Shown here piece after piece: positions 1 through 14,936 of a stretch of DNA of 31,217 nt. This DNA is from a virus. Position numbers and translations under genes: made by a program. Below the pieces are notes generated by a model. It ran no database searches, had not been told where the DNA came from, and saw nothing but the letters and a program-made list of their open reading frames with translations. Numbering within the stretch: position 1 is the stretch's first letter; each line of letters begins with the position of its first letter. Location: positions 1 to 31,217 of the IMG/VR virus record IMGVR_UViG_3300032360_000034. One strand, given 5' to 3'.

Positions 1-1164
1 AAGAACACCAGCAGTGAAAGTAATACCAGTACCAGCGATGTCGCTTTTAACAGCCAGACCACTACCGGTAGTGGCCAAACCGGCTACACCGGAATCAAGT
101 TTGATCTGAAGACTGTCAGAAGAAGTTTCGATGCCTCCGGCGGCGACCACGTTGATCGACAAAACGCCACTTGCGATTGCCAGACCATCACCGGCTGCCG
201 TGGTCGAAATCGAAAGAACACCACTTGTGTATGTGATTCCGTCACCGGCAGTACCGCTGGCGAGAGCAACATCGTTAGCGTTGACGGTGATGCCATCCCC
301 GGCAATAACGTTGAGAGTGTCACCGCTCTTGGTAAGACCGGCACCAGCATCAATCTGACCGGCACCTGAGAACTGTGAGAAAACTAGATCATCAGTGCCA
401 ATGGTGTAAGACCCGCCACCCACCTTGGCTTGAAGGACGTAGCCCCGATTGGAGTTTGCGGTGCCTCGCTCTACGAAGAAGAAAGCACCAGCAGTAGCCT
501 CTGCGGAAGTATCAAAATCTGTAGCCCGCGTTGGAGCGCCAGAAGCGTTTACCGTATAAACACCATTTTCAGAAGCGTCAGCCTGATCTTTGAGCAGAAC
601 CCTGTCGCCAGTCGCAAGAGTGATTCCGTCAAGAGTGTCACCATTTTCAAAGCCACTGGCAAGAGTTGCCGCAGCCGTTGTAGCAACAGCAACCGACTCT
701 TTAGGATCCAGACCAGCGGCCCGATCATCGACATAACCCTTGTTCGCGGCATCAGCAGCGTTAGTCGGTGCCGCCAAACCTGTGACCTTTGAAACATTGA
801 CAGCATTGCTCCCGTCACGTTTCATAATCGTGGAGGCAGTATCCGCCTCAGTAGCAGCGTTTACTAGCACATAATGCGCTGTGGGCATAAGCCCATCAGT
901 AGAACCATTGGCATTAGCAACAGTTAGCGCCGGAGCGCCCGCCGTCCCTGCCGTAACGGTCAGCGCTGTAGTGCTAGACGAAACATCGGTTAGAATCTGC
1001 TTCCACGCAGAACCGTTGTAAACCTTGAGAATATTGTTGGTTGAATCGAAAATCGTCCAACCCTCGAACTCCCCAGAACCGGGATCCCCAGCAGAGAACT
1101 GCATCTTCGCGTTCTGAAGTTCATTTTGATTTATATTAAGATTGGTAACAAACTTTTGTGCCAT
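1..1164 (-). CDS. Tail fibre protein, 3' end cut by window edge
   Basis: Reading left from the ATG at 1164-1162, the frame stays open to base 1, giving 388 residues without a stop, so the C terminus lies outside the window. The N terminus starts MAQKFVTNLN. Residues 139-146 read AANKGYVD, a motif common in phage tail fibres just before the shaft. Residues about 153-266 form a compact module with the hallmark GDRVLLKDQ...ENGVYTV...RATDFDT, seen in many fibre proteins. From about 270 the protein becomes a repetitive beta-shaft of AGDGI/GVLSI-like units of roughly 15-20 residues. It is the last fibre gene visible on the minus-strand operon, 13 bp after the gene before it. It probably forms a trimeric side or tip fibre for host binding. 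Family type is secure, exact position in the virion is not. Confidence 0.85.
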   Translation of the reverse strand, partial: MAQKFVTNLNINQNELQNAKMQFSAGDPGSGEFEGWTIFDSTNNILKVYNGSAWKQILTDVSSSTTALTVTAGTAGAPALTVANANGSTDGLMPTAHYVLVNAATEADTASTIMKRDGSNAVNVSKVTGLAAPTNAADAANKGYVDDRAAGLDPKESVAVATTAAATLASGFENGDTLDGITLATGDRVLLKDQADASENGVYTVNASGAPTRATDFDTSAEATAGAFFFVERGTANSNRGYVLQAKVGGGSYTIGTDDLVFSQFSGAGQIDAGAGLTKSGDTLNVIAGDGITVNANDVALASGTAGDGITYTSGVLSISTTAAGDGLAIASGVLSINVVAAGGIETSSDSLQIKLDSGVAGLATTGSGLAVKSDIAGTGITFTAGVL

Positions 1165-1177
1165 GTTGACCCCGGTA

Positions 1178-1633
1178 CTACGTCAAATATGCCGACCCTG
1201 AAAATGCCGCAGAAAATGTCAGTGTAACCTGCGTTTCGCTATCATATTGTACCCCACCTATCACCACTGTGCCGGTAGAATCAACAACTGTTACAGATGG
1301 ATGGCCTCCTAATGCATGTGTAACTGTCCAAGTCGTCGCTGCCGACCCTTGCGTATGAATATACCGATCCGCACCAGTCAAAGAGATATATTCTGCGGGC
1401 CACACCCCGGAAGCCTTAGGACCAAATAGTCGGGATTCACCACTTCCCATCTGCCAGATGTACCAATTCCCTTCAGCCCCCGTAGCAGCATTGGGTTCCG
1501 TACTACCCGTTAGAAGTCCGCCCTGCTGACCACCAGCAGTAGCGAGAATCTTTACATAAACCTTGTCCGGGGTAGCCGCGGATGTGGTAACAACATTTCG
1601 GAGTTCTTCAACTGTCACATTGTAAGTAGTCAT
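1178..1633 (-). CDS. Small tail-fibre-associated protein with fibre C-terminal-like domain
   Basis: A 151-aa protein starting MTTYNVTVEE. The C-terminal half (about 95-151) has the pattern W.VTHALG..PSV.VVDSTG.VV.GGV.Y....VTLTFS..FSGSAYLT. That pattern recurs at the C termini of many phage fibre and baseplate-decorating proteins and is probably a small beta-domain. Its start codon overlaps the stop of the preceding gene (1630) by 4 bp, which indicates translational coupling. It sits between a small structural protein and a long fibre, so a fibre or fibre-connector role is likely. No enzyme motif is visible. Confidence 0.8.
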   Translation of the reverse strand: MTTYNVTVEELRNVVTTSAATPDKVYVKILATAGGQQGGLLTGSTEPNAATGAEGNWYIWQMGSGESRLFGPKASGVWPAEYISLTGADRYIHTQGSAATTWTVTHALGGHPSVTVVDSTGTVVIGGVQYDSETQVTLTFSAAFSGSAYLT

Positions 1634-1977
1634 ATCGTCACGTTCTCATCCAAGTTAAAGTTACCTTGTAACAGTCTTTCTATTACGCCCGTACCGCCAA
1701 CCAACTCTAGATCATATATGCCACTGAACTCTAGCGCCGCAGTATCCGCAGCAGAAATAGTCAAACTTACCGTTCCGGTATTCGGCGTGATCGCAATCCG
1801 ACCATTTTCCGTGGTCAGTTCGATTAGAACGCTAGATGCTTCTATATCCTTACGCACCTGCATACGGGCCGTATAGCCCGCCAAACTACGAATACTGTCA
1901 TCAAAGTTCGTTACTTCTACATCGCGAGTGAACGTGGCTCCCTGTTCACAAGTAAAATGATAGATACCGGCAGGCAT
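1630..1977 (-). CDS. Small virion structural protein, fibre region
   Basis: A 115-aa protein, MPAGIYHFTCEQGATF at the start. The pattern QGATF.R.V......IRSLAGYTARMQVRKD...S..LIELT..NGRI.I....G.V.L.ISA.DTA.L...G.YDLEL matches a small all-beta protein family found near fibre and baseplate genes of many phages and prophages. It is normally annotated only as a structural or hypothetical protein. A strong ribosome binding site, GAGGAG, lies 8 nt before the ATG. It overlaps the next gene by 4 bp. The role is probably fibre attachment or trimer assembly. The family pattern is recalled from memory rather than searched. Confidence 0.8.
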   Translation of the reverse strand: MPAGIYHFTCEQGATFTRDVEVTNFDDSIRSLAGYTARMQVRKDIEASSVLIELTTENGRIAITPNTGTVSLTISAADTAALEFSGIYDLELVGGTGVIERLLQGNFNLDENVTI

Positions 1978-2050
1978 TCAAAGACTCCTCAAAGATAGTT
2001 TATAAAATCTAAACCGTTCCCTAATTGCCTCCCTCTCAAATGAGTCTACA

Positions 2051-2308
2051 TCATTCATCGTCACTCCCCGGATTAAACCTAGGGTTATAAAATTGATCAT
2101 CAAAAAACTTGTGACCATACTGCAACAGGCCAAACACCGTCCAAGGAGTTGTGGTGGGACCGGTCGAAACCAGCAACGACGTACCTTCGTCAGTTAGAAT
2201 TTCTGCTACAACAACGTAATCTTTAACGACAACAGGCAGGTCTTCATACTTCTCTGCAACTTCAGAATCTACCAGTTGTTTACCGGGGTCTTGAGCGGGT
2301 TCTTCCAT
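2051..2308 (-). CDS. Hypothetical acidic 85-aa protein
   Basis: The protein begins MEEPAQDPGKQLVDSE and ends with an acidic tail, NPGSDDE. The central part (VVVKDYVVVAEILTDEGTSLLVSTGP) is beta-like, followed by an aromatic stretch, PWTVFGLLQYGHKFFDDQFYNP. I do not recognise a family. It lies 9 bp downstream of the DUF6065-like gene and in the same direction, so it is the last gene of the halogenase/oxygenase cassette, and a 73-bp gap separates it from the next fibre gene. That placement could make it an accessory of the modification cassette or simply a small structural protein. Confidence 0.65.
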   Translation of the reverse strand: MEEPAQDPGKQLVDSEVAEKYEDLPVVVKDYVVVAEILTDEGTSLLVSTGPTTTPWTVFGLLQYGHKFFDDQFYNPRFNPGSDDE

Positions 2309-2317
2309 TCCCCAATA

Positions 2318-3079
2318 CTAACCCATAGGACATTTCCCCGCATCAGCCTCGCGCTGGTGCTTGCGATAAAGACCCTTTCTATTGCCAGCCCGGAACCCAA
2401 AGGTGCCCACACCACGGTTCCAACCCATATCCCACATTTCTTTAAGTCCCATAATGATCGTCTTGACCTTGTCGTTCCTCTTGACAGGAATCAAGTGGTA
2501 TAACGGAGTTCCCGCACGCACTTCAAACGACTCCCCCGTCATCACACGAATAACAGCATGAAGATTGTGGTAGTAATCCGTGTTCACAATGGCTGGTAGA
2601 ACTTCATAACGCGAATCAGGTTCATAGGCCACCGGCAGAACCAGCATCGAATAACCCGGAGCAGTCTTGTACAGATAGGGGGATACCAATTTCAAATACG
2701 ATGCCTTTGGACGCGCCCTACCATCATTGATGGGGGCACCTTCGCAAGAGTCGTAATGAAAACGTTCTACACCAAAAAAACGATCCGCTGGTGTCGCTAC
2801 GAACTCCGCATGACCCATCGGATCAAACTGCATGTCACACCACAGCGGCACTGTAATGCCCAAAGAGAGATAGTCCTGAATCCCCTTACACCCAAGCATC
2901 GTAGTATTCCGATTCTTCGGCATGTTCTTCCACCAATCAGGCCAAGTGGTGCCATTGACTACGGGAGGATTCTCTAATAGGCGATAGTCCTTAGGAATCA
3001 TCAATATTTCTCCGGGCTTGACCTTGGGCCAATCCCGGTAAGTTCTAATTTTATCTGAGTTCTTTAAGCGCTTCAGCAT
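2318..3079 (-). CDS. DUF6065-like protein next to halogenase
   Basis: A 253-aa protein. The middle to C-terminal part carries KLVSPYLYKTAPGYSMLVLP...IVNTDYYHN...F.VRAGTPLYHLIPVKR. I recall this arrangement (KTxPGYS, IVxTDYY, GTPLxxxIPxKR) from the DUF6065 family of phage and bacterial proteins of unknown function. The N-terminal part holds PDWWKNMPKN and VPLWCDMQF. No signal peptide or membrane segment is seen. The ATG at 3079 overlaps the 3' end of the halogenase gene by 29 bp and has a GAGAG ribosome binding site, so the two are co-translated. The overlap argues that it works with the halogenase or the oxygenases, for example as substrate binder or partner enzyme. That function is inference only. 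Confidence 0.75.
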   Translation of the reverse strand: MLKRLKNSDKIRTYRDWPKVKPGEILMIPKDYRLLENPPVVNGTTWPDWWKNMPKNRNTTMLGCKGIQDYLSLGITVPLWCDMQFDPMGHAEFVATPADRFFGVERFHYDSCEGAPINDGRARPKASYLKLVSPYLYKTAPGYSMLVLPVAYEPDSRYEVLPAIVNTDYYHNLHAVIRVMTGESFEVRAGTPLYHLIPVKRNDKVKTIIMGLKEMWDMGWNRGVGTFGFRAGNRKGLYRKHQREADAGKCPMG

Positions 3080-4538
3080 GATCTCTCGTTGGTCTGGAAT
3101 ATTTAGCCTGTTTCAAATCATACAAGTAATTCTCCACCCTGTCTGCTACACCATACGCTGCTATCGAATCCAATGCCACTTCAGCACTGAGTAGTCCTTG
3201 CCCCTGAGCAACATGATAGAGATGGAGCATCCTGAACAGTAACCACGGCCCCTGTATGTCCGTATTCTCCGGTTGACGCTCTGACCAAACTCCCAACAAA
3301 TGTTTCAAACTATCTGGAATGGGCATACTTTTCTGTTCACGCCAAAATTCCGTGTCTTCACGATCACTTATATAATGAAGCCGAATCATATCTCTAATAT
3401 TCAACATCATATTGTTCATCATAATATTGTACTGCTTTATGCTGTATCTATTCTCTCTCCGAAACGAAGCCAAAAAACCCAACAATGCAAAAGATTGATT
3501 GATCGTTGATCCAATGGAAGTAGCCTCAAGAGGTTCAACGAAGGAACTTGACAAACCCACCGCCACACAATTCCCAACCCACATCTTTTCTAGATAACCG
3601 GGATCAAATTGGAAATGTTTGTAGTCCGATAGTTTGATGTCCAATAGTTCTTCCATCTCGGACACGACATCTTCCTCTGAGCAAAACTTTGAAGAATAGA
3701 CGTAGCCTCTTCCCCGTTCCGTTTGTGTCGGAATCTCCCAAGCCCAACCGTTCCTCAGGGCCGTCGCCCGCGTGTACGGACGAATCTCCCCACTGGGATC
3801 TGCATCAGCGCGAAAGGCAATCGCAGAGTCGGTCAACAGGTAATCGCTAAAAGAGTTCCATTTCATATCGGGTAGATTTGACATCAAAATCCTGTTGAAA
3901 CCCGAAGCGTCTATCCAGAAATCGGCCTCAACCGGATACTCTAAAGTATCTATGTCAACGCTTTCTATCCAATCCGAATCGGATAGATTCACATCCCAAA
4001 CCTCACCATCAATGATTTTGATATTACGCTTTTTGCATTTCAAAGTTAAAAATTCATTCAACAGGTGGGTATCAAAATGAAATTGATTAACACCATCATG
4101 TGGATTTTCTGCCAGAACAATATTATTCCTCGGATCACCGAACATCGTGGCGTCCGAAAGAAGAATCCCCTTCGCCTGCAACCCCCCATACGAACCATGA
4201 AATTCTCCAACATGAGGACTTCCCTTGGACTCACCCGCAATCGAATGAAAATAGTCTGGCGTATGATTAGTCCATCCTTCAAAGCGAATGCCCTTTTTAT
4301 GAGTAGCACTCGTGGCCGGGATCAGATCAGCAACCTTGATATCAACGAAGTTCATAAAGCCTCGCCAATGTTCCGTAGACCCCTCCCCTACTCCTATGGT
4401 GCCGATTTTGTCAGACTTAATAATAGTTATTTGATATTCAGGAAATGTCTTTCGCAGGATCAAGGCGCATATCAATCCAGCGTTTCCCCCGCCTACGATC
4501 ACTACTCTTCGATCAATAATTCCCGTTGTATCGTGCAT
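3051..4538 (-). CDS. FAD-dependent tryptophan-halogenase family protein
   Basis: The 495-aa length is close to the roughly 500-540 aa usual for flavin-dependent tryptophan halogenases. The FAD-binding GGGNAG is at residues 16-21 and IGVGEGST at 48-55. Lys81 sits where PrnA has its catalytic Lys79 (HKKGIRF against FKAAIKF). The halogenase signature WxWxIP is present as WAWEIP at 265-270. FVEPLEAT (333-340) holds Glu335, equivalent to the PrnA active-site glutamate, so the enzyme looks intact. Family chemistry is FADH2- and O2-dependent halide oxidation and halogenation of an aromatic substrate. It needs a separate flavin reductase, and none is seen in the window. It lies 3 bp after a 2OG oxygenase gene and overlaps the DUF6065-like gene. 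Cyanophage homologues are known, such as VirX1 of phage Syn10. The substrate here is unknown. Confidence 0.93.
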   Translation of the reverse strand: MHDTTGIIDRRVVIVGGGNAGLICALILRKTFPEYQITIIKSDKIGTIGVGEGSTEHWRGFMNFVDIKVADLIPATSATHKKGIRFEGWTNHTPDYFHSIAGESKGSPHVGEFHGSYGGLQAKGILLSDATMFGDPRNNIVLAENPHDGVNQFHFDTHLLNEFLTLKCKKRNIKIIDGEVWDVNLSDSDWIESVDIDTLEYPVEADFWIDASGFNRILMSNLPDMKWNSFSDYLLTDSAIAFRADADPSGEIRPYTRATALRNGWAWEIPTQTERGRGYVYSSKFCSEEDVVSEMEELLDIKLSDYKHFQFDPGYLEKMWVGNCVAVGLSSSFVEPLEATSIGSTINQSFALLGFLASFRRENRYSIKQYNIMMNNMMLNIRDMIRLHYISDREDTEFWREQKSMPIPDSLKHLLGVWSERQPENTDIQGPWLLFRMLHLYHVAQGQGLLSAEVALDSIAAYGVADRVENYLYDLKQAKYSRPTRDHAEALKELR

Positions 4539-4541
4539 GGT

Positions 4542-5147
4542 CTACTGAAACCAAGTCACTAGTACATACTTCTCCCCTTCTTCTACCGGAAGGGCCTTAT
4601 GGGAGTATGGAAAACAGGCTGGCATCAATACGAGAGTTCCGGGTGTTGGCTTAATCTCAACATCGAATAATGGAACTGCCAATTCTCCACCGATGTAATC
4701 GTCGTTCAAATAAAGAAGCAACGACAGTAAACGCATATTTGTGGAACTTGCATCGGCATGCATCCGATATTCCGCTTCGTTTCTGTATCTCAAACAACGT
4801 AGTCCTTGATTCTTTTGCAGTTTCAAACCGAAGGCCGACCGATAGTTGTGGATTTGCACTTCGTATGTATTTATCAGATCCAACAAATGATTTCTCAAAT
4901 CTACAACATGCGAATCGTTGGCATACTCAATTCTATCTCCGAGGATTTCATGGAAATCCATTTCAACACTGGTTCTATATTCAGAGATAACATTCCTAGT
5001 TCCCTCTTCAGGACCATAAACTAGGGATCTCTTCCACGGTGCCACAGAAGGATCCATATCCCCAACTATTTTTATCTTATCCAGCAAGCCTTCCGCTTCT
5101 GAATATAATCCATCCCATACACATATACCCGGCGCTATTTGTTCCAT
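4542..5147 (-). CDS. 2-oxoglutarate/Fe(II) oxygenase, prolyl 4-hydroxylase type (second copy)
   Basis: A 201-aa double-stranded-beta-helix oxygenase. The iron ligands are readable: HAD at 130-132 (His130, Asp132) and His183. The 2-oxoglutarate-binding Lys193 lies ten residues after the distal His, in SHKALPVEEGEKYVLVTWF. The stretch LLLYLNDDYIGGEL (144-156) is the usual P4H core strand. It couples O2 and 2-oxoglutarate turnover to hydroxylation of a substrate, in P4H relatives often a peptidyl proline. The ATG follows the stop of the other oxygenase by 1 bp, with AAGGA about 6 nt before it. It differs clearly from the neighbouring oxygenase in sequence, so this is not a recent duplication. 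The substrate is unknown. The neighbouring Pro-rich adhesin is an attractive candidate. Confidence 0.9.
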   Translation of the reverse strand: MEQIAPGICVWDGLYSEAEGLLDKIKIVGDMDPSVAPWKRSLVYGPEEGTRNVISEYRTSVEMDFHEILGDRIEYANDSHVVDLRNHLLDLINTYEVQIHNYRSAFGLKLQKNQGLRCLRYRNEAEYRMHADASSTNMRLLSLLLYLNDDYIGGELAVPLFDVEIKPTPGTLVLMPACFPYSHKALPVEEGEKYVLVTWFQ

Positions 5148-5148
5148 C

Positions 5149-5802
5149 TCAATCCTTCACCTGAGCCAAAATATAAATCTTCTCGCCAGCAGTATTCGCC
5201 AATGACCGGTGTTCGGTATGCCATGTCGTGGGCATCATCAGCACCTCGCCCTTCTTGGGTTTATACTTGACTCTTTCACCTTCGGAATCACGAATATTTT
5301 TGAACTCTATCTCTCCGCCTTCATAGTTGTCATTGACGTAGAACAAGTACGTTCCCGTTCTTCCACCTTCTCGCGTATCCTGATGAAAATCAAAATACCC
5401 CTGCCCATCTGGATATATCAGGAGTTCGTCATTGGCCCCAGATCGGAAATAATAACCAATACCCAAATCCTTTGCAAGGATGTGCTTCATCTCAATCAAG
5501 GTATCCCATACCAGTTCATGTAAAAGCGAATACTCTCCACGCAACTCTTTGAGCATTCCTGCGGTGTAGCAAAACCGTTTCTCGATGTCTACATAAGGAG
5601 GGAGGCTTTTCCCTTCCTTATTTTTAGGATACATTTTTGACAGTTCAAAGTAATCATTTTCTGATCCGTCATAATAATCATCAATATATTTCTGCGCTAC
5701 TTTACAAATAGCACCAGCAGCAGTAAAATTGAAAACGTAAACGCTAGGACAAATTTCCCTAACCCGTTCACCCTGACCCAAAGTCACCGTCATTTGTGAC
5801 AT
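5149..5802 (-). CDS. 2-oxoglutarate/Fe(II) oxygenase, prolyl 4-hydroxylase type (first copy)
   Basis: A 217-aa member of the same fold as the next gene. HQD at 140-142 supplies His140 and Asp142, His198 is the distal ligand (WHTEHRS), and Lys208 is spaced ten residues later in GEKIYIL. FYVNDNYEGGEIEF (154-167) is the core strand. The N-terminal about 100 residues (ICPSVYVFNF, then helices) are not shared with the second copy. The gene starts 2 bp after the stop of the repeat-rich adhesin gene and lacks a clear ribosome binding site, so translation is probably coupled. It likely performs hydroxylation of a peptidyl or small-molecule substrate. Other phage enzymes of this family are usually annotated only as oxygenases, and specificity cannot be read from sequence. 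Confidence 0.9.
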   Translation of the reverse strand: MSQMTVTLGQGERVREICPSVYVFNFTAAGAICKVAQKYIDDYYDGSENDYFELSKMYPKNKEGKSLPPYVDIEKRFCYTAGMLKELRGEYSLLHELVWDTLIEMKHILAKDLGIGYYFRSGANDELLIYPDGQGYFDFHQDTREGGRTGTYLFYVNDNYEGGEIEFKNIRDSEGERVKYKPKKGEVLMMPTTWHTEHRSLANTAGEKIYILAQVKD

Positions 5803-5804
5803 TT

Positions 5805-7319
5805 TTAGATATTAGCAGTATCCAGTGCGATGAGTCGCCCGTTTACACCCGTGTTGAAAGTGTAAGTTGGAGTACCGGCGTCTCTGGTAACCACGATTAG
5901 GACACCACCACCGCCACGCCCACCGCGTTGACCCGTATATCCGGTTCCACCACCACCACCGGGATGAACGGTGGCAGCCTCGTGAGTCTGCACATCCGGA
6001 CCCTCGTAACTGAAATACTCGCCTGCTTCAAAATAATCAACTTGAACAGGTGCGCCCGCTTCGGTCTCTGTGACCACATCTGGACCCGGACCGTGCTGCG
6101 CGGTTTCTCCGCCATCACCGTGTTGCGCTTCAGTCTCCGTGACCACATCTGGACCCGGACCATGTTCCGAAGAATACCCAGTAATTATATCTGGACCCGG
6201 AAATCCTACAAATGTCGAAGCGTGGCCTGTCCCCGGAAGGTGGAAATTGTAAGTAGAATTATGATGAGTTGGCCCAGTGAAGTGATGGTGATGCGCTGCC
6301 CCATCTGGACCCGGACCGTGTACCGCTTCAGTTTCCGTGACCACATCTGGACCCGGACCATGTTCCGAAGAATGCCCAGTAATTATATCTGGAGCCTCCG
6401 AATGCCCTGTGACCACAGGCGCACCGGGACCATGTTCCGATACAGGCGGACCCGGAACAAAATGTGTACCGCCCGTTGGTGGGGTCTGTCCAGTCACAGG
6501 TGGACCCTCAGAATGAACGGTTGAAGCGGGATCAGTATAACTAGGAGCAGGAGTCCCACCAGACCCCGCCGTACCGGCAACACCCGCACCACCCTCAGAA
6601 TAAATACCACCCTCACCAGTGATAACCCGTGCTGCAAGCATCACCACGCCACCACCACGAGCGCCTGCGCCACCAGTACCACCGGTACCTGCTGAACCCT
6701 TTCCACCGGGCGCACCAACCGTGTTGGCGTTCGGGGGCCAATTCCCCGCCGCCCCGGCTCCACCAACCCCGTCAGCACCAGTGCCTCCACCCGCACCACC
6801 CTTGACGCGAAGAAAGTCACCACCACGACGCTGATAAGCATTGACAGCCGCACGAAGATCATAAAAGTCTGAAGAATCGATACCCAGCGAACTAGTCACA
6901 GAACCCGAACCGGTGAATGTAAAACCCGGCTCATAACCGTCAGGCTCACCAGCACCGCCCAAACCGTCAACCACACTCTGCCCGACACCAACCGTCCCAG
7001 ACAAAGAACCGGCACTCACACTGGCAACAGATTCTTTAACGCCCAAATCACCATTCAGCGTCAACGTGTTCTTTACAAAAACCCGCCATCCGTTGGGATT
7101 CAAAGTCTTGCCAGAATCAATAGTCAAATTGCTGTAATACATGTCCTCGCTGAGACTTGTATCAGCAGAAATGGTCACATCGCCGTCTTCGCCATTACCG
7201 AAGAGCATCTCGCCATCAAACTGGACATCCCCGAACTCCCGTTCAGGCAAAGCCGCGTACACATAAGGAAGAAGATCCTTATCCCGACGAACATCCTGAT
7301 CGTAGCGAGCCTCAGCCAT
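5805..7319 (-). CDS. Glycine-rich adhesin with Pro/Gly/His/Glu repeats
   Basis: The 504-aa protein has three parts. Residues 31-93 (GNGEDGDVTISADTSLSEDM...LTLNG) match the N-terminal domain of the upstream neighbour (7319-7975). Residues 170-255 and 453-475 are polyglycine-rich with GGGVVMLAAR and GGGVLIVVTR strands, resembling the polyglycine-helix sandwich of T-even gp38-type adhesins. Residues about 256-452 are an insert rich in Pro, Gly, His, Glu and Thr with repeats. PDIITG(H/Y)SSEHGPGPDVVTETEA-type units occur at 310-332 and 376-398, and a shorter copy of HGPGPDVVTETEA is at 409-421. The start overlaps the previous stop as TGATG. It is likely the receptor-binding tip. Its unusual composition and position directly before two prolyl-hydroxylase-type genes make it the obvious candidate substrate. 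Confidence 0.82.
   Translation of the reverse strand: MAEARYDQDVRRDKDLLPYVYAALPEREFGDVQFDGEMLFGNGEDGDVTISADTSLSEDMYYSNLTIDSGKTLNPNGWRVFVKNTLTLNGDLGVKESVASVSAGSLSGTVGVGQSVVDGLGGAGEPDGYEPGFTFTGSGSVTSSLGIDSSDFYDLRAAVNAYQRRGGDFLRVKGGAGGGTGADGVGGAGAAGNWPPNANTVGAPGGKGSAGTGGTGGAGARGGGVVMLAARVITGEGGIYSEGGAGVAGTAGSGGTPAPSYTDPASTVHSEGPPVTGQTPPTGGTHFVPGPPVSEHGPGAPVVTGHSEAPDIITGHSSEHGPGPDVVTETEAVHGPGPDGAAHHHHFTGPTHHNSTYNFHLPGTGHASTFVGFPGPDIITGYSSEHGPGPDVVTETEAQHGDGGETAQHGPGPDVVTETEAGAPVQVDYFEAGEYFSYEGPDVQTHEAATVHPGGGGGTGYTGQRGGRGGGGVLIVVTRDAGTPTYTFNTGVNGRLIALDTANI
6131..6391 (-). repeat. Direct repeats inside the adhesin gene
   Basis: Two near-identical copies of about 63 bp lie at 6131-6193 and 6329-6391, offset by exactly 198 bp (66 codons). 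They share the cores ACCACATCTGGACCCGGACC and TGTTCCGAAGAAT(A/G)CCCAGTA. Partial third and further copies of TCTGGACCCGGACC occur near 6078 and 6304. The offset keeps the reading frame, so recombination between copies would lengthen or shorten the adhesin insert in 66-residue steps. Confidence 0.85.
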
Positions 7320-7975
7320 CAGTCTGCCTCAAGGAAGGAGGTCGTTCCCGCTGATCCCGTTCCAGCACCAGCGGCGCTAAGTGTGTATGAGTGGGTCTTG
7401 TCCGAAGAAATCAGAATCACCACACCACCACCGGCGTTACCGGCAGCCGTGGCCACAACGCTTCCAGCACCCGACAAATACCGCGCGGCAACGATTACCA
7501 CACCGCCACCATAGTTGGTGCCGTCACCGGCACCGCCTTTCAAAAGGTTGATGGTCCCATTGCTGGGATCAAACGAGTAGCCGTCAACTGCATTCAAAGG
7601 ATTCCTATACCACTTCGACCCGCCCAATGCAGCAGTAGGAGCAGTCACCGTATAACTTGCTGAAGCCCCACCCAACGAGTTCGTAGCGTTAGCGTCCTGA
7701 GTTCCAATACCCAGCGAACCCTGTGCGGAAGGCCCAGCGGCCATTCCCAGCGTTCCATTTAGATACAGATTCCGCTGAACAAACACCTTGTATCCGGCAG
7801 TTGTCAGAGTGATGCCGGAATCTATCGTCAAATCCAGATAGTACATATCCGCAGTCAACGAAGTATTGGTGCTGATCGTTACAACAGCGTCTTCACCGCT
7901 CCCGAAAATATGCGACGGCGAATCATAGAAATCCGCTAAAGCATCAGGAGCGCCTATTCGGACCAGCCGCCCCAT
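7319..7975 (-). CDS. Glycine-rich fibre/adhesin protein, short paralogue
   Basis: A 218-aa protein. Residues about 23-80 (FGSGEDAVVTISTNTSLTADMYYLDLTIDSG...VFVQRNLYLNGTLG) align with residues 40-92 of the 504-aa adhesin encoded next, and its glycine-rich C half (GGGVVIVAARYLSG, GGGVVILIS) aligns with the ends of that protein. It therefore looks like the same fold without the repeat insert. It overlaps the next gene as TGATG and is separated from the preceding one by 2 bp. It is probably a structural fibre component and might be the paralogue that supplies the base for the longer adhesin. No enzyme motif is seen. Confidence 0.78.
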   Translation of the reverse strand: MGRLVRIGAPDALADFYDSPSHIFGSGEDAVVTISTNTSLTADMYYLDLTIDSGITLTTAGYKVFVQRNLYLNGTLGMAAGPSAQGSLGIGTQDANATNSLGGASASYTVTAPTAALGGSKWYRNPLNAVDGYSFDPSNGTINLLKGGAGDGTNYGGGVVIVAARYLSGAGSVVATAAGNAGGGVVILISSDKTHSYTLSAAGAGTGSAGTTSFLEAD

Positions 7976-7977
7976 TG

Positions 7978-8310
7978 TTACGCCTCCTGAATACCGAAAG
8001 AATGAACCGTTACGGCGCTAGCCACACTCGCAGAACCAGATATAAAATCTCCGGTCGCCATAACTGCGGACATGTTCACAAAAATCGTAGACTTTGAGTC
8101 AACTGGAACGTCGTACAGCACAGCATTCGTCACACCAGCCGTTCCTCCATTGGGCACTAAATAAAGTGAAACCGTTCGATTGGTTGCCGTTGTATTACAC
8201 AGTGCCACCTGTTTTAGGATCGTTGTCGTACTGCCCGGAACCGTATATAGCGTCGCTGCCGAGTTGCCCAACTGCGACGGCGCATGTAACTTTGTTTGAG
8301 TCATTGCCAT
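7978..8310 (-). CDS. Small virion structural protein
   Basis: A 110-aa, Thr/Ser/Val-rich, all-beta-looking protein. The stretch LGNSAATLYTVPGSTTTILKQVALCNTTATNRTVSLYLVPNGG is a pattern I recall from many small phage proteins lying among fibre genes, generally listed as hypothetical or structural. The start overlaps the stop of the preceding fibre gene as TAATG, so the two are translated together. It may cap or decorate a fibre. There is no transmembrane segment or signal peptide. Confidence 0.78.
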   Translation of the reverse strand: MAMTQTKLHAPSQLGNSAATLYTVPGSTTTILKQVALCNTTATNRTVSLYLVPNGGTAGVTNAVLYDVPVDSKSTIFVNMSAVMATGDFISGSASVASAVTVHSFGIQEA

Positions 8311-9002
8311 TAGACAGTAACCTCCATATGGAACATTGTCTCCAAATCACTAAGCGTACCACTAGTAGTCGTTAAACTTGTATCAGTGGCATAACTATAC
8401 GATAGAATCTTATCTTCAATAGCAGCAGAAGTCATAACAGACGTATCATTGTTGGCAAACGCCTCGCCAGACGACTGAACAGCAGCGAGTCCCACGCTAT
8501 CTAGTGTTAGTGTGCCAGCAATTGTTACATCATTGGGAAGTCCCACTGTTGCCGCACCCGACACTGTGGACACTTCGACTTCATTAGCCGTTCCCCCAAC
8601 ACTCAAAACAACATCAGACCACGCTAAACCAGTACCCGCCGTGGAATCCGCAGACAATACCTGATTATTGGTACCGACTCCCAACCTGATCGGCGTATTG
8701 GCCGCCGAAGCAGCGTAGATATCACCCTTGGTAGTCAGGGTGGTTCCACGAACCTCAGTACCATCAACCACCAAAACCCATGTTGAATCGTTAGTGGAAT
8801 AGACCTTCAACGAATTATCGGTAGAGTTGTAATGGAAAAACCCGGCTATGGTTCCCGAGGCGGCACTGCTGCTTTCTGACCATCCAGCGGAATTCGTGTT
8901 GAGATTTGTGAAGGCATCATTGAACTGGACGCGCGTGAATGAATCCAAACTGGACGACCAGTTCGGCAACGAACCAAATCTGTTTCCGTAGGTGATAGTC
9001 AT
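8310..9002 (-). CDS. Tail fibre protein
   Basis: A 230-aa protein with the widespread fibre motif LTTKGDIYAAS..NTPIRLGVGTNNQVLSADSTAGTGLAWS at about 90-132, followed by GGTANEVEVSTVSGAATVGLPNDVTIAGTLTL, also typical of fibre shafts. The N-terminal part (SLPNWSSSLDSFTRVQFNDAFTNLNTN) may be the attachment domain. A good ribosome binding site, AGGAGC, lies 7 nt before the ATG. The protein is short for a fibre, suggesting a fibre split over several polypeptides in this region. Confidence 0.85.
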   Translation of the reverse strand: MTITYGNRFGSLPNWSSSLDSFTRVQFNDAFTNLNTNSAGWSESSSAASGTIAGFFHYNSTDNSLKVYSTNDSTWVLVVDGTEVRGTTLTTKGDIYAASAANTPIRLGVGTNNQVLSADSTAGTGLAWSDVVLSVGGTANEVEVSTVSGAATVGLPNDVTIAGTLTLDSVGLAAVQSSGEAFANNDTSVMTSAAIEDKILSYSYATDTSLTTTSGTLSDLETMFHMEVTV

Positions 9003-9030
9003 AGCGTTGCTCCTAGGTAGATACTACACT

Positions 9031-12000
9031 TTAAATGGGTAGTGTTATCCGCACTCTTTCCATATCTGCTGCCGACATTGCCTCTTTGAACACTACAAAG
9101 TGGTTAAATTGCCAACCCGGCTCGTCATCTGTGTGAACAATAACATTCGCGTCAGAATTGCCTACACGGGAAGCCAAACTACCAACCGTGGTATCCGCCA
9201 CATCCTGAACTTTGGTTCCATTTGCATACATAGTAAACTTACTATTGGGAACATCTCGAACAAGCCCGATATGATTCCACTGTCCGATGCGCGAAGAATC
9301 ATCCCAAGTCACACTCACGGTTCCCCCAGCAGACGAAGATGAATCATACTGTTCCGTGAGGATCCCGATTACATCATCACCGTTGAACTTCAACATGAAG
9401 TTTGGGTGTTTGAATACAAAATCATCATTTCCGCTGTCAGTTTTGAACCGACGATAGTGAAATGAAACACTTAATGCCGTATCTCGCCCGATCGTCAGAT
9501 TGGGAGCCATTGCCCCCCCCTCACGATTCAACTGGAATAAATCCCTATCAACAATCGCAGAATGCTCATACGCATCAGCGGCCTCCCACGCACGATTGAT
9601 AGTCCATGTTCCACCTGTCTCATCAGTTCCAGTGCTTGTCGTCGTCGTATGCGTCAATGTAATGCTAGGTAAAAATGTGTAGGTTTTGGTTCCAACGGCA
9701 GCGATCTGAGTGATCTGTTTGCCCCCATACGTTCCAGCATTCCAAGTAATCGTGGTCACACCCGTTCCGGTGCCCGTAGCCGTTGTAGCGTCTGTATAGG
9801 TGACGGTCCAGTTGTAGGTGTCATTGTCCATCCCAGACACCACAATGCTGTCACCGGAACTGCTTTGGTTGCCCAAGTATAAATAATCGGTTCCCGTATG
9901 GGGCAAGCCTATCCAGTTGGAAACAGGTAGGGGACTTGCCTCGTACTGAATAGTGTAAGCCACATCAGTGTTAAGAGTAGCACTCTGAGTGAATGTATCC
10001 ACTCCATCATATAATGTAGGAGTAGTTGTACTACTGCTCGTCATATTCAAATCTATGCATGTTGACAAAATGAAACCAGCATATTGACTATCTAGCATTC
10101 CATCATTCACAATAGCCCGATAACCAACAACCCCGTTCTCACCGTGGTTCACTTGAAACCACTGCGCTGTAAACGAAGTAGAGAAAACATTTGGAGAAGA
10201 CTGCGATGCCGTAGTGACCAGATGAGAGGTGGGATGACATACATCAATCAGTGACGGACCGACATAGAACTTCGTCGTTGACGCACCGACGGCAAACCGT
10301 ACCCAACGATCCCCTACAGTAGTGAAATCATATTCAACAGGATGAGTTGAGGAACTGTAGACATCCGATGAAACAGACCCCGACACCCCAGTCAGATATT
10401 TGAGAATGCCGGACGATGCATCAATTGTGCAAGCCCTATAATTGGCATTAGATGGAGTCCCTTGCTGGTACAAGATGATATCAGAACTGTTTCCATAACT
10501 AACATCACTGATGTGGAACAAGTAGTCACAATCTGTTCCCGTGAGACCTGTTGAAACCGTTGCGGATTGAAGGTAAGCCTTTGATCCTGTAACGCCACTC
10601 GGGTAAAAAGAAAATCCCGTGCTATACCGAGACCCGGCAATGATTCCGTAACGAGAATCCTTAGGATCAATCGCTGTGCCCGTCGTCACCAATGAGACAT
10701 GCCTGCCTGAACCGGTTACGTCTGGCATGGCCGCACAGGCGCTATCTCCGAACTTGAAGACGGTGTCGTCATTGGCTGTGACTCCAGCACCCGGCACGTT
10801 CTTCTCTAGAATGTCCTTTGCTTCGAAAGCGAACACCCCTGCGTCCCGCGGCTTACCAGACTGTGTACCGATAACACCCATAGAAAGCGTCGGATCCATT
10901 TCTGTTTCGACACGAATCCCATCCGGATCTGGATCTACTTCTGTATCAAAAACATACTTGACCAAGAGCGGAGATTCCCGGTCATGCGTTTTTATCCTGT
11001 GGAAATAATTGTCCGGTGTGGTTGTATCCAGAATCGTTTTCAAATATTCCCGCATCCGATACGGTTTGCCGGTATTCAAACCATTAAAAGCATTTTCGAT
11101 TTGATCTCGATACGATTGAATATCCTCGTAGGAGGCCGATCTAACCTTCGCCCATTGAGCGGAGTCACTAGCAACGTCCTCGTTGTCAACTAGGTCTATC
11201 TTTTGCCACGTTGTTGAATCAGTAGATTCAATCCATCCGGGGAGCGACAGCCACATGCTCATACCCGTAAATGGATTGACCAGTTCAACCCCAACGAATT
11301 GAGCCAACCATCTAAGATTATCTTTATGAATTTGTTGAGGATCCGTTAACGCTGACTTGCTTTCGGTATTTGTTATCGAATCAGTTGACCTTCTGTAATT
11401 CCAAGTTCTTGTTTCTTCACCAATAATGATTCCAGTGGCATAAGCCGCTGACATCAACTTTTTCAACATCCGCACATGGTTTTGAGATGCGTTATCTAGA
11501 TTCGCGTCAGCATTTCTAAGAAACTCAGGAAGTATATTGTATGCGTTATCTAATGTGATATTTGAAAGCATCAACGACAAATCCACAGCGAACACATCCG
11601 ACAAAACAAATGCCTGATTTGCAGCAGTCGCAGCATCAACCGTAAAAATCAATCTAGCGTAGTTGGCATCGGACGGAACCCAAAACTGTTTCCTACCAAA
11701 ATCCGGCGGCCCTTCTCGAAAACCAAACTTCATAGTAACCGCAGACAAGTGAGTTCCTAAAGCATACGTTTTAGTAGCGTCGGCCGGAAGCACATACGCA
11801 ACTTCATGGACATCCGATGACGATGACGCAACCCATGCCCCATCAACCACCTTTTCCCCAACCGGATCTATCGAACTACCCCCTCCAGCAACCGTGACAG
11901 TGAAATATTCAATCTTCAATGTTGCCGTTTTTTCCACATAGGCAGAACCAATAGTAATAATTCCATTTGTTCCGTAACTCTTTGTATAATCAATAGGGAA

Positions 12001-12195
12001 CAAAGGAGATGTAACTTTCACCACCCCAGCAGCCGAAGAGGTAATTAGTAAGCCATCTTTCCCTACCCCGCTTCCCAATTTCGTTTCCTGATAGCCTAAA
12101 GAAGCAGTAGTACGAAGTGTTGCATTTGTCGCCGACCAAAGAGAAGAATTAAATACAACTCCGTTTGATTCCAATAGGTTAATGGGGTCAGCCAT
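9031..12195 (-). CDS. gpI-like tail protein fused to LamG-type adhesin end
   Basis: A 1054-aa multi-domain protein directly after the gpJ-like gene, the position of P2 gpI. Residues about 1-210 are beta-rich. Residues about 216-420 (ILPEFLRNADANLDN, LRWLAQFVGVEL, NAFNGLNTGKPYRMREYLKTIL) fit the tail protein I family, which links baseplate wedge and fibres. The middle is a long Ser/Thr/Gly-rich beta region. Residues about 905-1054 (ALSVSFHYRRFK...WNHIGLVRDVPNSKFTMYANGTKVQD...HFVVFKEAMSAADMERVR) look like a concanavalin/laminin-G-type sugar-binding domain. Such a fusion would place a carbohydrate-binding module at the baseplate rim. The start is fixed by the upstream stop 1 bp away. The boundaries are estimates. 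Confidence 0.8.
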   Translation of the reverse strand: MADPINLLESNGVVFNSSLWSATNATLRTTASLGYQETKLGSGVGKDGLLITSSAAGVVKVTSPLFPIDYTKSYGTNGIITIGSAYVEKTATLKIEYFTVTVAGGGSSIDPVGEKVVDGAWVASSSSDVHEVAYVLPADATKTYALGTHLSAVTMKFGFREGPPDFGRKQFWVPSDANYARLIFTVDAATAANQAFVLSDVFAVDLSLMLSNITLDNAYNILPEFLRNADANLDNASQNHVRMLKKLMSAAYATGIIIGEETRTWNYRRSTDSITNTESKSALTDPQQIHKDNLRWLAQFVGVELVNPFTGMSMWLSLPGWIESTDSTTWQKIDLVDNEDVASDSAQWAKVRSASYEDIQSYRDQIENAFNGLNTGKPYRMREYLKTILDTTTPDNYFHRIKTHDRESPLLVKYVFDTEVDPDPDGIRVETEMDPTLSMGVIGTQSGKPRDAGVFAFEAKDILEKNVPGAGVTANDDTVFKFGDSACAAMPDVTGSGRHVSLVTTGTAIDPKDSRYGIIAGSRYSTGFSFYPSGVTGSKAYLQSATVSTGLTGTDCDYLFHISDVSYGNSSDIILYQQGTPSNANYRACTIDASSGILKYLTGVSGSVSSDVYSSSTHPVEYDFTTVGDRWVRFAVGASTTKFYVGPSLIDVCHPTSHLVTTASQSSPNVFSTSFTAQWFQVNHGENGVVGYRAIVNDGMLDSQYAGFILSTCIDLNMTSSSTTTPTLYDGVDTFTQSATLNTDVAYTIQYEASPLPVSNWIGLPHTGTDYLYLGNQSSSGDSIVVSGMDNDTYNWTVTYTDATTATGTGTGVTTITWNAGTYGGKQITQIAAVGTKTYTFLPSITLTHTTTTSTGTDETGGTWTINRAWEAADAYEHSAIVDRDLFQLNREGGAMAPNLTIGRDTALSVSFHYRRFKTDSGNDDFVFKHPNFMLKFNGDDVIGILTEQYDSSSSAGGTVSVTWDDSSRIGQWNHIGLVRDVPNSKFTMYANGTKVQDVADTTVGSLASRVGNSDANVIVHTDDEPGWQFNHFVVFKEAMSAADMERVRITLPI

Positions 12196-12196
12196 T

Positions 12197-13813
12197 TTAC
12201 GAAACCGTAATAGTCAAAGTACTTGGATAGGTCAACATTCCCAAACGGTTCATACGAATATCACCAATCAAACCACCAGTGCCATCAGTGACATTGGAGG
12301 CCAATATTTCAGCACGCACGGCGGTCGAAGTCTGAATAAATGAAATCGAATCTGTTCCAATCGTTCCAGCAGCACTACAAGAAAATCCCTTACTACCATT
12401 GGTTGAACCAGCAGTGACCCAGACAAACTTGTCAACTACCATCTTATTGGTAGTATCTGCATCAGTATTCCTAGTTAGAACCCAATTGCTGGAACCGTCA
12501 CCAACCGTTGTAACCTCATAGATGCCGTTTTGGAGTGCTGCCGTCTGATCCTTGATCAAAACACGATCACCCGAACTCGGTGTTTGACCGTCTGTCGCAA
12601 ACGCCGCCTGCGTTGAATTGTTCGTTAGTGTCGCCCCAACACCTACCGTCCCATTGTCATAATCGGCCGACAGGTTGGCCGTAGAGGCAGCGACCACTGC
12701 TTCCTCCGGCAATGACAACGTGACACTCTTGACATAATCAATGCCAGTCACACTGTCCAACAAACTAATCACTTCGTTCTTGCGAACAACCCTGCTCCAA
12801 TCCCACGCGTCAGAGTCAAAGTATTTTTCTAGCGCCGTTTGAACCGCACCAGAAACCGTTCCTGAAGCGGCAGTGGACAGTTTGTACACCTCGCAAGTAA
12901 TACCAATCCCTACAAGTTCCGCATTGTGAACTTCAATAGTCAGACCTGTACCGGTCTTACTGGCCACGGCAGTTGAAATCGTAGAAACATTCGCTGCTGA
13001 TACCGTGGCATCTTCAACGGCTCTTGGATAGCCGTTAACATTTTCCCCGGCGACGGACAACAACACATACCCGCTATGTATCCCACCCCCCGTGACCAGA
13101 TCCCTGTCGGAAAACCGACGCGTGTTGTATGCCTTGGCTCGAAACACCGATCCCACATAGACGGCAAGAACATGGGAAGCCAACTGTTCTTCAGTTGCTA
13201 AAACCGAAGAATATGATTTCAACAATGTAGTGGCCCGATTGAAATACTCCGTATCAGTTTCTGCGTCTAACCCACCCGTTGGCTTTGAATCGAGAACAAT
13301 CGTTTTCACATAGGGCAGCACCGCCAACGACTGGAGAGAACTCCCGTTGGAAGGGATGTTGTATCCCGTTCCAATCGCTTGAGCCGTGACAGCCACCGAT
13401 GCCAAAGTGGTTGAACCAGACGCTACCGTTGTATCCGCATCCAACGTATACACATACGCTGAATCATCTGTACCAAAATAAGCAAAAGCGGTAGTCGCGG
13501 GAATAGAGTGTCCATAGTTGTCAGAGAATGTTATTCCCACCGTTGCCGTTGCTTTAACCCCATTCGAACGAGTCACTGCAAACAATTTCAAAAGTGTTTC
13601 AACTGTTGCCCCCGGAAGCCGATTCGCTGCATTCGCCAAATTGGCGGTCTGATACGCGGTCGCTTCCAAAAGAGTTGTCTCTACTTCTCCAACCTTCGGA
13701 GACCACTCAGGCAATAAGGCTTTCGCCTGCGTCAAACTTTCCTCCAAAATACTGGAGACAGTTGTGTCATATGGAGTTAGATCAACATATGTAGACCAAT
13801 CTGGAGAAACCAT
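12197..13813 (-). CDS. Baseplate wedge protein, gpJ/gp47-like, with inserted fibre module
   Basis: A 538-aa baseplate J-like protein. The N-terminal region (LTQAKALLPEWSP, ETTLLEATAYQTANLANAANRLPGATVETLLKLF, then ATATVGITFSD) and middle (DAETDTEYFNRA, ATEEQLASHVLAV) follow the family. The C-terminal core (GIDYVKSVTLSLPE ... GDIRMNRLGMLTYPSTLTITVS) is split by about 125 residues (373-497). That segment has the pattern GDRVLIKDQ...QNGIYEV...TRNTDADT...FVWVTAGSTNGSKGF, the same module seen in the tail fibre at 1-1164. The gene follows the gp25-like gene by 8 bp, with AGGGG before the ATG. Function is as a wedge component of the baseplate. Identification of the family is confident, and the module insertion is visible by eye. 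Confidence 0.88.
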   Translation of the reverse strand: MVSPDWSTYVDLTPYDTTVSSILEESLTQAKALLPEWSPKVGEVETTLLEATAYQTANLANAANRLPGATVETLLKLFAVTRSNGVKATATVGITFSDNYGHSIPATTAFAYFGTDDSAYVYTLDADTTVASGSTTLASVAVTAQAIGTGYNIPSNGSSLQSLAVLPYVKTIVLDSKPTGGLDAETDTEYFNRATTLLKSYSSVLATEEQLASHVLAVYVGSVFRAKAYNTRRFSDRDLVTGGGIHSGYVLLSVAGENVNGYPRAVEDATVSAANVSTISTAVASKTGTGLTIEVHNAELVGIGITCEVYKLSTAASGTVSGAVQTALEKYFDSDAWDWSRVVRKNEVISLLDSVTGIDYVKSVTLSLPEEAVVAASTANLSADYDNGTVGVGATLTNNSTQAAFATDGQTPSSGDRVLIKDQTAALQNGIYEVTTVGDGSSNWVLTRNTDADTTNKMVVDKFVWVTAGSTNGSKGFSCSAAGTIGTDSISFIQTSTAVRAEILASNVTDGTGGLIGDIRMNRLGMLTYPSTLTITVS

Positions 13814-13821
13814 AATAACCC

Positions 13822-14115
13822 CTAAGTAAACTTGACTTCGATTGTTTCCAAAGCACCCTGACCTTGAATCACTTCAACTTCTTCAATCGCAAGCGACGTA
13901 CCATAAAATTGAGCAATGGAATCTATGATTTCAAACGATCCCAAACCCTCAAAAGTTGGATCAGTAATACCAAAAGCAGGAAAAACCTTGCGTTCCTCCA
14001 TATGGGTAGACATGAACGCTTTAATCTGTTGAGCCTTATACTCGTCAGAAGTGGTTCCCACCTTGACGAACTCACCTCTATCGGTCAACCTTAACGGAAA
14101 CGACAAAACATCCAT
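13822..14115 (-). CDS. Baseplate wedge protein, gp25/gpW-like
   Basis: A 97-aa protein with the family pattern FPLRLTDRGEFVKVGTTSDEYKAQQIKAFMSTHMEERKVFPAFGITDPTFEGL and a short beta C terminus. This matches the T4 gp25 / P2 gpW lysozyme-like wedge family in length and order, and it sits directly before the gpJ-like gene as in P2 (W then J). It is part of the conserved inner baseplate that starts sheath assembly. The expected glutamate in the HMEERKVFPAFG loop is present. A 69-bp gap with a short hairpin separates it from the M15 peptidase gene. Confidence 0.88.
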   Translation of the reverse strand: MDVLSFPLRLTDRGEFVKVGTTSDEYKAQQIKAFMSTHMEERKVFPAFGITDPTFEGLGSFEIIDSIAQFYGTSLAIEEVEVIQGQGALETIEVKFT

Positions 14116-14157
14116 AGAATCCTACTTTAGCACTAGTAACGACAAGATTTTACCGCG

Positions 14158-14174
14158 TCCCCGAGTGCCGGGGA
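14158..14174. other. Short GC hairpin in the gap between peptidase and gp25-like genes
   Basis: TCCCCG-AGTGC-CGGGGA forms a 6-bp stem with a 5-nt loop inside the 69-bp gap (14116-14184). No T-tract follows on either strand, so it is not a typical intrinsic terminator. It could modulate mRNA stability or reduce readthrough between the lysin and the wedge genes. Confidence 0.4.
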
Positions 14175-14184
14175 AGCAACAAAA

Positions 14185-14934
14185 TCAGGACAACGGCTCA
14201 TCGCCCCACATCTCATCCCACGTTCTCGAACCAACAATCCCATCCCGCGCAAGACGATTAACCCGCTGAAACTGCTTTACCCGCCACTTGGTGCGCCACC
14301 CGAAATGTTCACTAGGAACACCAATATCAAAACCAAGAGCGGCCAACTTGCGCTGCATAACCTTCACCCGATCCGAACGCTCTTTTCTGCGCATCGGGTT
14401 TCGTTTAATACCCTCAGTAATAGCATTGTGATATTTGATAAGGGCCACCCAATCAATAACCGGTTCTTTCTTTTCTTCTTTGACCCCAATCGCATCCAAC
14501 GCCGGAGCATCAAACCACTCAACAGAAGCACGAGGCTGATGATGCCACCACTCGCCACGCACCGTCGGATGCATCCCATATTCTTTCGCAATGTTATTCA
14601 CTTCCCACTTTTTGATTCCACTGCCACACAAGCCGAAATCGACCGCATAGCAAAATCCGTCGTCCTGAGTCATGTGCCAACTTCCGCGCCAAATACCGAC
14701 ACCAAAAACAGTTTTAGGTCCAAACCGTCTGTCAGGATCAGCGGCTAAATTGAATCCAGATTTACGACTTTTATAACCATCATAAAAATACTTCTGCTTG
14801 GCATAAGTTCTACACCCACTGGTAATCCTTACACGCCCCTTAATACGCTCATCGCTGAAAAACGCTTCCAAGCGTTTTACAAAACGTGGGTGGAGCAGAG
14901 AAAGATCAACATTCTTTTTGGCTGGAATAGTCAT
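14185..14934 (-). CDS. M15-type peptidase with C-terminal peptidoglycan-binding domain
   Basis: A 249-aa protein. SGCRTYAKQKYFYDGYKS (39-56) and SWH at 85-87 to AVD at 97-99 give the metal ligands His87 and Asp99, with a few extra residues between them compared with the usual SxHxxGxAxD. EWWH (128-131) gives the catalytic Glu and third ligand. This is the D-Ala-D-Ala carboxypeptidase/endopeptidase (M15) fold, which cuts peptidoglycan stem peptides. Residues about 190-245 (RVKVMQRKLAALGFDIGVPSEHFGWRTKWRVKQFQRVNRL..DGIVGSRTWDEMWG) are a peptidoglycan-binding type 1 domain. GGAGG sits before the ATG within the end of the upstream gene. Its place inside the baseplate genes suggests a tail-associated lysin for entry. 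It could also act as the endolysin. Confidence 0.88.
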   Translation of the reverse strand: MTIPAKKNVDLSLLHPRFVKRLEAFFSDERIKGRVRITSGCRTYAKQKYFYDGYKSRKSGFNLAADPDRRFGPKTVFGVGIWRGSWHMTQDDGFCYAVDFGLCGSGIKKWEVNNIAKEYGMHPTVRGEWWHHQPRASVEWFDAPALDAIGVKEEKKEPVIDWVALIKYHNAITEGIKRNPMRRKERSDRVKVMQRKLAALGFDIGVPSEHFGWRTKWRVKQFQRVNRLARDGIVGSRTWDEMWGDEPLS

Positions 14935-14936
14935 TA

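Follow-up and report, generated by a model that had tools for sequence, protein, structure and literature searches.

The virus fragment IMGVR_UViG_3300032360_000034 of IMG/VR, analysed here over its whole length of 31,217 bases (hereafter the window), carries on its minus strand, between positions 2051 and 7319, a compact series of genes for an adhesin-like protein with a His-, Gly- and Pro-rich loop, two 2-oxoglutarate (2OG)-Fe(II) oxygenases, a flavin-dependent halogenase, a DUF6065-like protein and a small acidic protein. We consider it fairly probable that this is an adhesin-decoration cassette, in which the co-encoded enzymes would hydroxylate and halogenate the loop and thereby alter phage adhesion. 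A preliminary description of this DNA had listed the same genes, all of which were located, separated by 1-9 bp or overlapping. It had also proposed a virion-modifying cassette tied to the adhesin, a proposal that is strengthened by the joint replacement of loop and enzymes in the sister locus L003 (L-numbers denote the loci or contigs of relatives compared with the window), by the His-rich adhesins found near 54 of 57 related halogenases and by a comparable arrangement in a second adhesin family. In many aquatic phages the fast-changing loop is passed on along with the enzymes and has been swapped with them on at least one occasion, which suggests that these viruses decorate their own tails chemically. 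Immune escape, suggested there as a purpose, is not supported. What is new is the link between the loop and the enzymes, rather than any one enzyme family.

According to the proposed mechanism, the phage would produce, late in infection, a Gly-rich tail protein with a disordered, hypervariable, His-rich loop, the side chains of which would be hydroxylated by the 2OG-Fe(II) oxygenases. The flavin halogenase would add chloride, bromide or iodide, whichever is available, to electron-rich rings, most likely the imidazoles of His, while the DUF6065 protein would probably bind or present either the loop or the enzymes. Once decorated and displayed at the tail, the loop would change how the particle sticks to cells, and the enzymes would travel with the loop that they recognise. 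We infer from this arrangement both that the adhesin is the substrate and that adhesion is affected. A broader proposal, that such loop-plus-enzyme cassettes are exchangeable, that the halogenase acts on peptidyl His of the adhesin, that the sequence of the loop evolves as one with its chemistry, and that VirX1-type halogenases, like many 2OG oxygenases of phages, have their native role here, is tentative and somewhat doubtful.

Joint exchange of the adhesin loop and the enzyme genes

The adhesin-like protein (504 aa, 5805..7319, minus strand like all cassette genes described below; phrog_13336, E 1.7e-8) consists of an N-terminal domain named adhN, a Gly-rich scaffold, a variable loop and a Gly-rich C-terminus. 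The adhN domain (GxGxDGxvtI...DMYYxNLTI...GYrvFVkxtLtLNG) is common to the adhesin and to a small partner protein (7319..7975; phrog_13336, E 5.4e-6), which is without the variable loop. The hypervariable His/Gly/Pro-rich loop spans residues 266-450 (5970..6524). In the AlphaFold2 model the scaffold is confident and the loop is not, with a predicted local distance difference test score (pLDDT) below 50 for residues 290-424. With this partly confident model, a fold search of the PDB returned no match, and the BFVD matches (E 4e-11 and 3e-10) were to collagen-like proteins of the giant viruses Pandoravirus and Orpheovirus. The position of the gene and the hypervariability of its product suggest that the protein is an adhesin located in the virion. 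The protein had been called a Pro/Gly/His repeat adhesin: the composition is indeed kept across relatives, and a strict repeat pattern occurs only in the window phage.

When the DNA identity between the window and L003 was profiled in 50-base steps, the upstream genes were 82-100% identical. Identity falls from about base 7050, corresponding to codon 90 of the adhesin, then stays mostly at 44-86% and has risen again to 94-98% by about base 2380, within the last ~20 codons of the DUF6065-like gene. The swapped block thus covers approximately 2380..7050, in DNA that is otherwise 82-98% identical, and in L003 it holds two additional genes, namely YVP and a third oxygenase. The small acidic gene (2051..2308; 85 aa, with 17 D+E and 5 K+R) is a neighbour lying past this block: it is 82-96% identical to L003 in 50-base steps, and it is 88-92% identical in the sisters L024 and L003, the block of the latter having diverged. 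The identity profile consequently removes it from the exchanged unit, so that of the five or six genes first described, the adhesin loop and the four enzyme genes are swapped together and the acidic gene stays outside. The fibre genes below base 900 are 70-82% identical to those of L003, and because the remainder of the pair is not perfectly even in similarity, the comparison documents one clear exchange event and provides no estimate of a rate.

In the nearest sister, L024, the loop is 63% identical, the scaffold 95% and the four enzymes 92-97%. Taken together, the comparisons with L003 and L024 show that it is the loop which changes fast, and that loop and enzymes have been replaced jointly. 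Such joint replacement is not predicted by a role in auxiliary metabolism, in which the enzymes would have a small molecule from the host or the infected cell as their substrate and might, for instance, make a halogenated metabolite, and the adhesin locus would merely be a spot that tolerates insertions.

Halogenase, oxygenases and DUF6065-like protein

The halogenase (3051..4538) matches PF04820 with E 2.5e-100 and a score of 337 bits, where the cut-off is 21, and 30 halogenase sequences of the PDB match it at E <1e-30. It retains GxGxxG, Lys81, GWAWEIP and Glu335, which identifies it as a flavin-dependent halogenase of the tryptophan type and confirms the homology and active-site residues reported in the preliminary description. 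Lys81, W265/W267/P270 and Glu335 are invariant in one alignment (A1) and W267 is nearly invariant in another (A6). The C-terminal part of the free-Trp halogenases did not align past about residue 448, where the clade of the window has an invariant H-x2-HVAQGQ.

This conservation bears on another explanation, according to which the His-rich loop would bind metals or protons, the flavoprotein and the oxygenases would be oxidases or scavengers, and halogenation would have been lost by the halogenase homologue. His is a kept residue of the loop, and His clusters such as HHHH are able to bind metals. However, a loop that simply bound metal would have no need of a halogenase following it from phage to phage, and the catalytic Lys, Glu and GWxWxIP are invariant or nearly so within the clade, which makes this explanation very improbable.

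Both oxygenases carry the complete HxD...H...K set and match PF13640 above the cut-off, as had been expected. Oxygenase A (5149..5802; E 7.2e-10) belongs to the prolyl-4-hydroxylase-like fold family, and oxygenase B (4542..5147; E 4.5e-14) is the version present in nearly all cassettes. A profile built from the oxygenase set matches prolyl 4-hydroxylases in the PDB.

The gene of the DUF6065-like protein (2318..3079) and that of the halogenase have 29 bp in common. The protein matches PHROG 7084 (E 1.4e-20) and scores 11.7 bits with PF19541 (DUF6065; E 0.18), under the cut-off of 26.6, compared with 22.8 bits for the L100 relative and 18.7 bits for that of L116. By its sequence it is a distant relative of DUF6065 only. 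Its AlphaFold2 model has a pLDDT of 93.5 and gave 91 Foldseek matches in the PDB at E <=1e-3, with dUTPases in 50 out of 50 among the matches listed. Similarly, a sequence profile of the DUF6065-like set matches only dUTPases, albeit weakly. A dUTPase fold is therefore predicted by the model. At the catalytic position of motif III, where we take Asp to be the catalytic residue of dUTPases, the set (n=73) has His in 42 members, Asn in 23, including the window, Asp in 6 and Glu in 2. Hence an active dUTPase appears unlikely, and an adaptor or binding role seems likelier than dUTP hydrolysis, because the catalytic Asp is replaced by His or Asn in 65 of 73. No paper on DUF6065 was found in the literature searched.

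Loop composition, enzyme sets and the likely target

The order of the genes is seen again in dozens of other contigs, which argues that the arrangement is not due to chance. In close and many distant relatives, the typical order is the 110-aa protein, the small partner, the adhesin, an optional YVP gene, one to three oxygenases, the halogenase and DUF6065. Searches of the annotated phage set with the adhesin and the small partner gave no matches, so that controls were drawn from IMG/VR. In the forward direction, loci were gathered by the adhN domain alone, with neither loop nor enzyme in the query, dereplicated at 85% and required to have at least 5 kb downstream. A halogenase was present within 6 kb of 30 of 31 His-rich adhesins and of none of 9 His-poor adhesins. 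The sole exception, L094, is a member of a Tyr-rich loop class, and its cassette contains a gene that is methyltransferase-like by eye and one with a weak match to Asp/Arg-hydroxylases (PF05118, E 0.036), at L094:8722-9426 and L094:11066-11596. In the reverse direction, halogenases of the clade were dereplicated at 90% and an adhesin was sought within 8 kb; a His-rich adhN adhesin was found for 54 of the 57 halogenases with enough flank, the misses being L154, L186 and the borderline L161. In addition, DUF6065 lies directly downstream of 61 of 66 clade halogenases and overlaps the halogenase gene in 59.

A second scan with the halogenase-negative adhesins revealed alternative cassettes. The first type usually has YVP, two oxygenases and DUF6065 without a halogenase, and its loops contain 16.9% Tyr and 19.6% Asn. 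The second type combines a PF11397 N-acetylglucosamine (GlcNAc)-transferase (E 1e-26 to 1e-29) with one or two oxygenases and between one and three copies of DUF6065, and its loops are rich in Tyr, Pro, Asn and Thr (11.5% Pro, 13.1% Thr and 0.3% His). We take PF11397 to be the family of the Skp1 hydroxyproline GlcNAc-transferase. Such genes, located at L100:4893-6110 and L116:12885-14114, belong to cassettes without a halogenase beside adhesins with Tyr/Pro/Thr-rich loops. The third type is a plain Gly-rich adhesin (31% Gly) without such enzymes. By comparison, halogenase-type loops contain 15.2% His and 3.4% Tyr. It is worth noting that the adhesin pair and its enzymes are doubled in tandem, about 9 kb apart, in L073, L181 and L189 (contigs 3300042291_001557 and 3300042545_001591).

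These compositions also bear on the residue that would be modified. Halogenation of Trp or Tyr and, as a first expectation, a +16 Da shift on Pro had been anticipated. Six halogenase-type adhesins have no Trp at all, which rejects Trp as an obligatory target. Tyr as the main target is weakened, since Tyr-rich loops accompany halogenase-less cassettes; in alignable halogenase-type pairs, Gly (78% kept) and His (76%) are the most conserved residues of the loop, ahead of Pro (64%) and Tyr (44%), so that among the reactive residues it is His, and not Trp, Tyr or Pro, that is conserved. Between the sisters whose oxygenases are 92-97% identical, only 42% of the Pro residues are kept, with frequent replacement by Glu. 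Hence Pro hydroxylation and Trp or Tyr halogenation are not the best first guesses, and His is the likeliest candidate for the halogen. Chlorohistidine is known from a marine sponge peptide (PMC7460063), and the halogenases MibH and VhaA act on hydroxylated peptides and require the prior hydroxylation (PMC12615548). These precedents make the proposed chemistry plausible.

Several points weigh against the decoration of the adhesin. On the small-partner tree the cassette types cluster strongly, and one well-supported branch (Shimodaira-Hasegawa-like approximate likelihood ratio test, 99) divides those with a halogenase from those without. Because this amounts to a single change, the co-occurrence counts lack independence and are descriptive; a Fisher test of the forward counts (p 3.7e-8) overstates the association and is kept as a description only. 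L154 and L186, which represent one lineage, keep the halogenase, the oxygenase and DUF6065 among structural genes without an adhN adhesin. No adhN domain was found in these two records (68 kb and 108 kb), nor was a His-rich neighbour seen, and their halogenases nest inside the adhesin-linked clade. No enzyme halogenating peptidyl His was found in the literature searched, and the loop might bind metal instead. Finally, the virion location of the adhesin is deduced solely from gene order.

L154 and L186 would fit the modification of another virion or host surface protein, the adhesin being co-selected as both serve attachment. The same could apply to the sister phage L280, in which at least seven 2OG oxygenase-like genes form an island, together with a second DUF6065, behind another fibre gene. 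We nevertheless hold this possibility to be quite unlikely, given that the exchange with L003 begins within the adhesin gene, at about codon 90, and covers the loop. The L280 island (IMGVR_UViG_3300021087_000039, bases 1-17500; 7000-17269), which also includes a methyltransferase-like gene, is situated beyond a 1200-aa fibre gene, and the window ends before the matching region.

As for the setting, the cassette is surrounded by late genes of a contractile-tail block, including sheath, tail chaperone, tape measure, endolysin and tail fibres. The 110-aa protein (f110, 7978..8310, minus strand; phrog_20100 and phrog_1276), which precedes the adhesin pair in most relatives, is part of the flank and is not exchanged. 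YVP is a family of ~150 aa without a Pfam match (L004:8165-8614 and relatives) that accompanies cassettes and is missing from the window. The class II ribonucleotide reductase gene nrdJ (28412-30577; phrog_367, E 1.5e-129) is on the plus strand, opposite to the late genes. The nearest relatives of the tail sheath (23256-24749; ~36%) are the sheaths of Gordonia and Arthrobacter phages, which hints at an actinobacterial host. This is at odds with the presence of a halogenase relative, L192 (64%), in a Gammaproteobacteria bin.

VirX1, related systems and biological meaning

Because the small-partner tree shows one change only, an unrelated adhesin family accompanying VirX1-type halogenases was sought as a separate replicate. 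VirX1 of cyanophage Syn10 (PDB 6QGM) belongs to the same family as the window halogenase and has the same catalytic set. The VirX1 gene, which overlaps one for a DUF6065-like protein, is preceded by the genes of two Gly/His-rich tail proteins (CPUG_00134 and CPUG_00135) and followed by many for 2OG oxygenases. However, VirX1 is only ~27% identical to the window halogenase, and the VirX1-type enzymes of cultured cyanophages form a branch of the halogenase tree separate from the clade of the window. Their neighbours belong to a different adhesin family, consisting of tail proteins that are rich in Gly (22-26%), contain His clusters and are unmatched by the adhN models. Behind them come DUF6065, which was not found in P-RSM6, and many 2OG oxygenases. 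Out of 50,697 phage records, exactly 20 are matched by one of the Syn10 Gly/His tail proteins, and all 20 have a halogenase within ~4 kb, VirX1 being among these halogenases.

Other distant phage halogenases lie beside metabolic genes, as in P-SSM2, Syn1, S-MbCM6, S-SSM7 and, for one of its two halogenases, Sf-CH3. This favours auxiliary metabolism, as do the published view of phage halogenases as auxiliary metabolic genes (PMC10452541, PMC2984593) and the many small molecules accepted by VirX1 (PMC8407142), which was studied with such compounds and whose native substrate is not named in the literature searched. The roles proposed for phage Trp halogenases and 2OG oxygenases are antibiotic protection, effects on host metabolites, DNA repair and nitrogen control (PMC2984593, PMC10452541, PMC3037559). 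Neither DUF6065 nor a Gly/His protein was found at the metabolic loci of P-SSM2, Syn1, S-MbCM6 and Sf-CH3, and for this reason they do not represent the same cassette. Homologous cassettes without a neighbouring adhesin had been named in advance as evidence against a virion-modifying function: the metabolic-context halogenases turn out to be other cassettes, and L154 and L186 constitute a real exception. The metabolic-context halogenases of P-SSM2 and S-SCSM2R are nearer to the clade of the window than VirX1 is, and an ancestral link with adhesins may have been lost later in such phages. Auxiliary metabolism also fails to predict that loop composition tracks the enzyme set, or that the link exists in two adhesin families, and we regard it as unlikely.

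The proposed decoration of the adhesin has partial parallels. The collagen-like proteins of giant viruses, which are accompanied by viral hydroxylases and glycosyltransferases, resemble the present system by the fold matches of the Gly-rich scaffold to Pandoravirus and Orpheovirus and by the GlcNAc-transferase of a sister cassette; they differ in that the window adhesin is without collagen triplets. To our knowledge, no halogenase or DUF6065 has been described with them. The gp38 adhesins of T-even phages share a Gly-rich scaffold with hypervariable segments, arranged in a polyglycine-II sandwich, whereas the partly confident model of the window adhesin has no fold match in the PDB. We know of no modifying enzymes encoded behind gp38. 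Phage enzymes also decorate their own particle by glycosylating virion proteins, with sugar rather than halogen and hydroxyl groups and without a tie to the exchange of an adhesin loop. Finally, the halogenases of ribosomally synthesized and post-translationally modified peptides (RiPPs), such as MibH, SrpI and ChlH, are flavin halogenases encoded beside their peptide substrate, and MibH needs a prior hydroxylation of proline (PMC12615548). RiPP halogenases act on Trp of short peptides, unlike the putative substrate here, which is several hundred residues long and may be without Trp. The locus is not a RiPP cluster, as a scaffold protein of 504 aa is the putative substrate and the exchanged block of the window contains no small conserved open reading frame.

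No paper on virion halogenation was found in the literature searched. The tryptophan halogenases and 2OG oxygenases of phages have long been without a role, and the adjacent His-rich tail proteins offer a candidate substrate for them. For VirX1 and its relatives, a natural target is hereby proposed that is open to testing. In addition, the DUF6065-like family gains a predicted fold, that of a dUTPase without the catalytic residue, and a genomic context. If the proposal is true, such cassettes would be a source of protein-halogenating enzymes for disordered, His-rich substrates, and phages would use chemistry, in addition to sequence, to diversify their adhesins.

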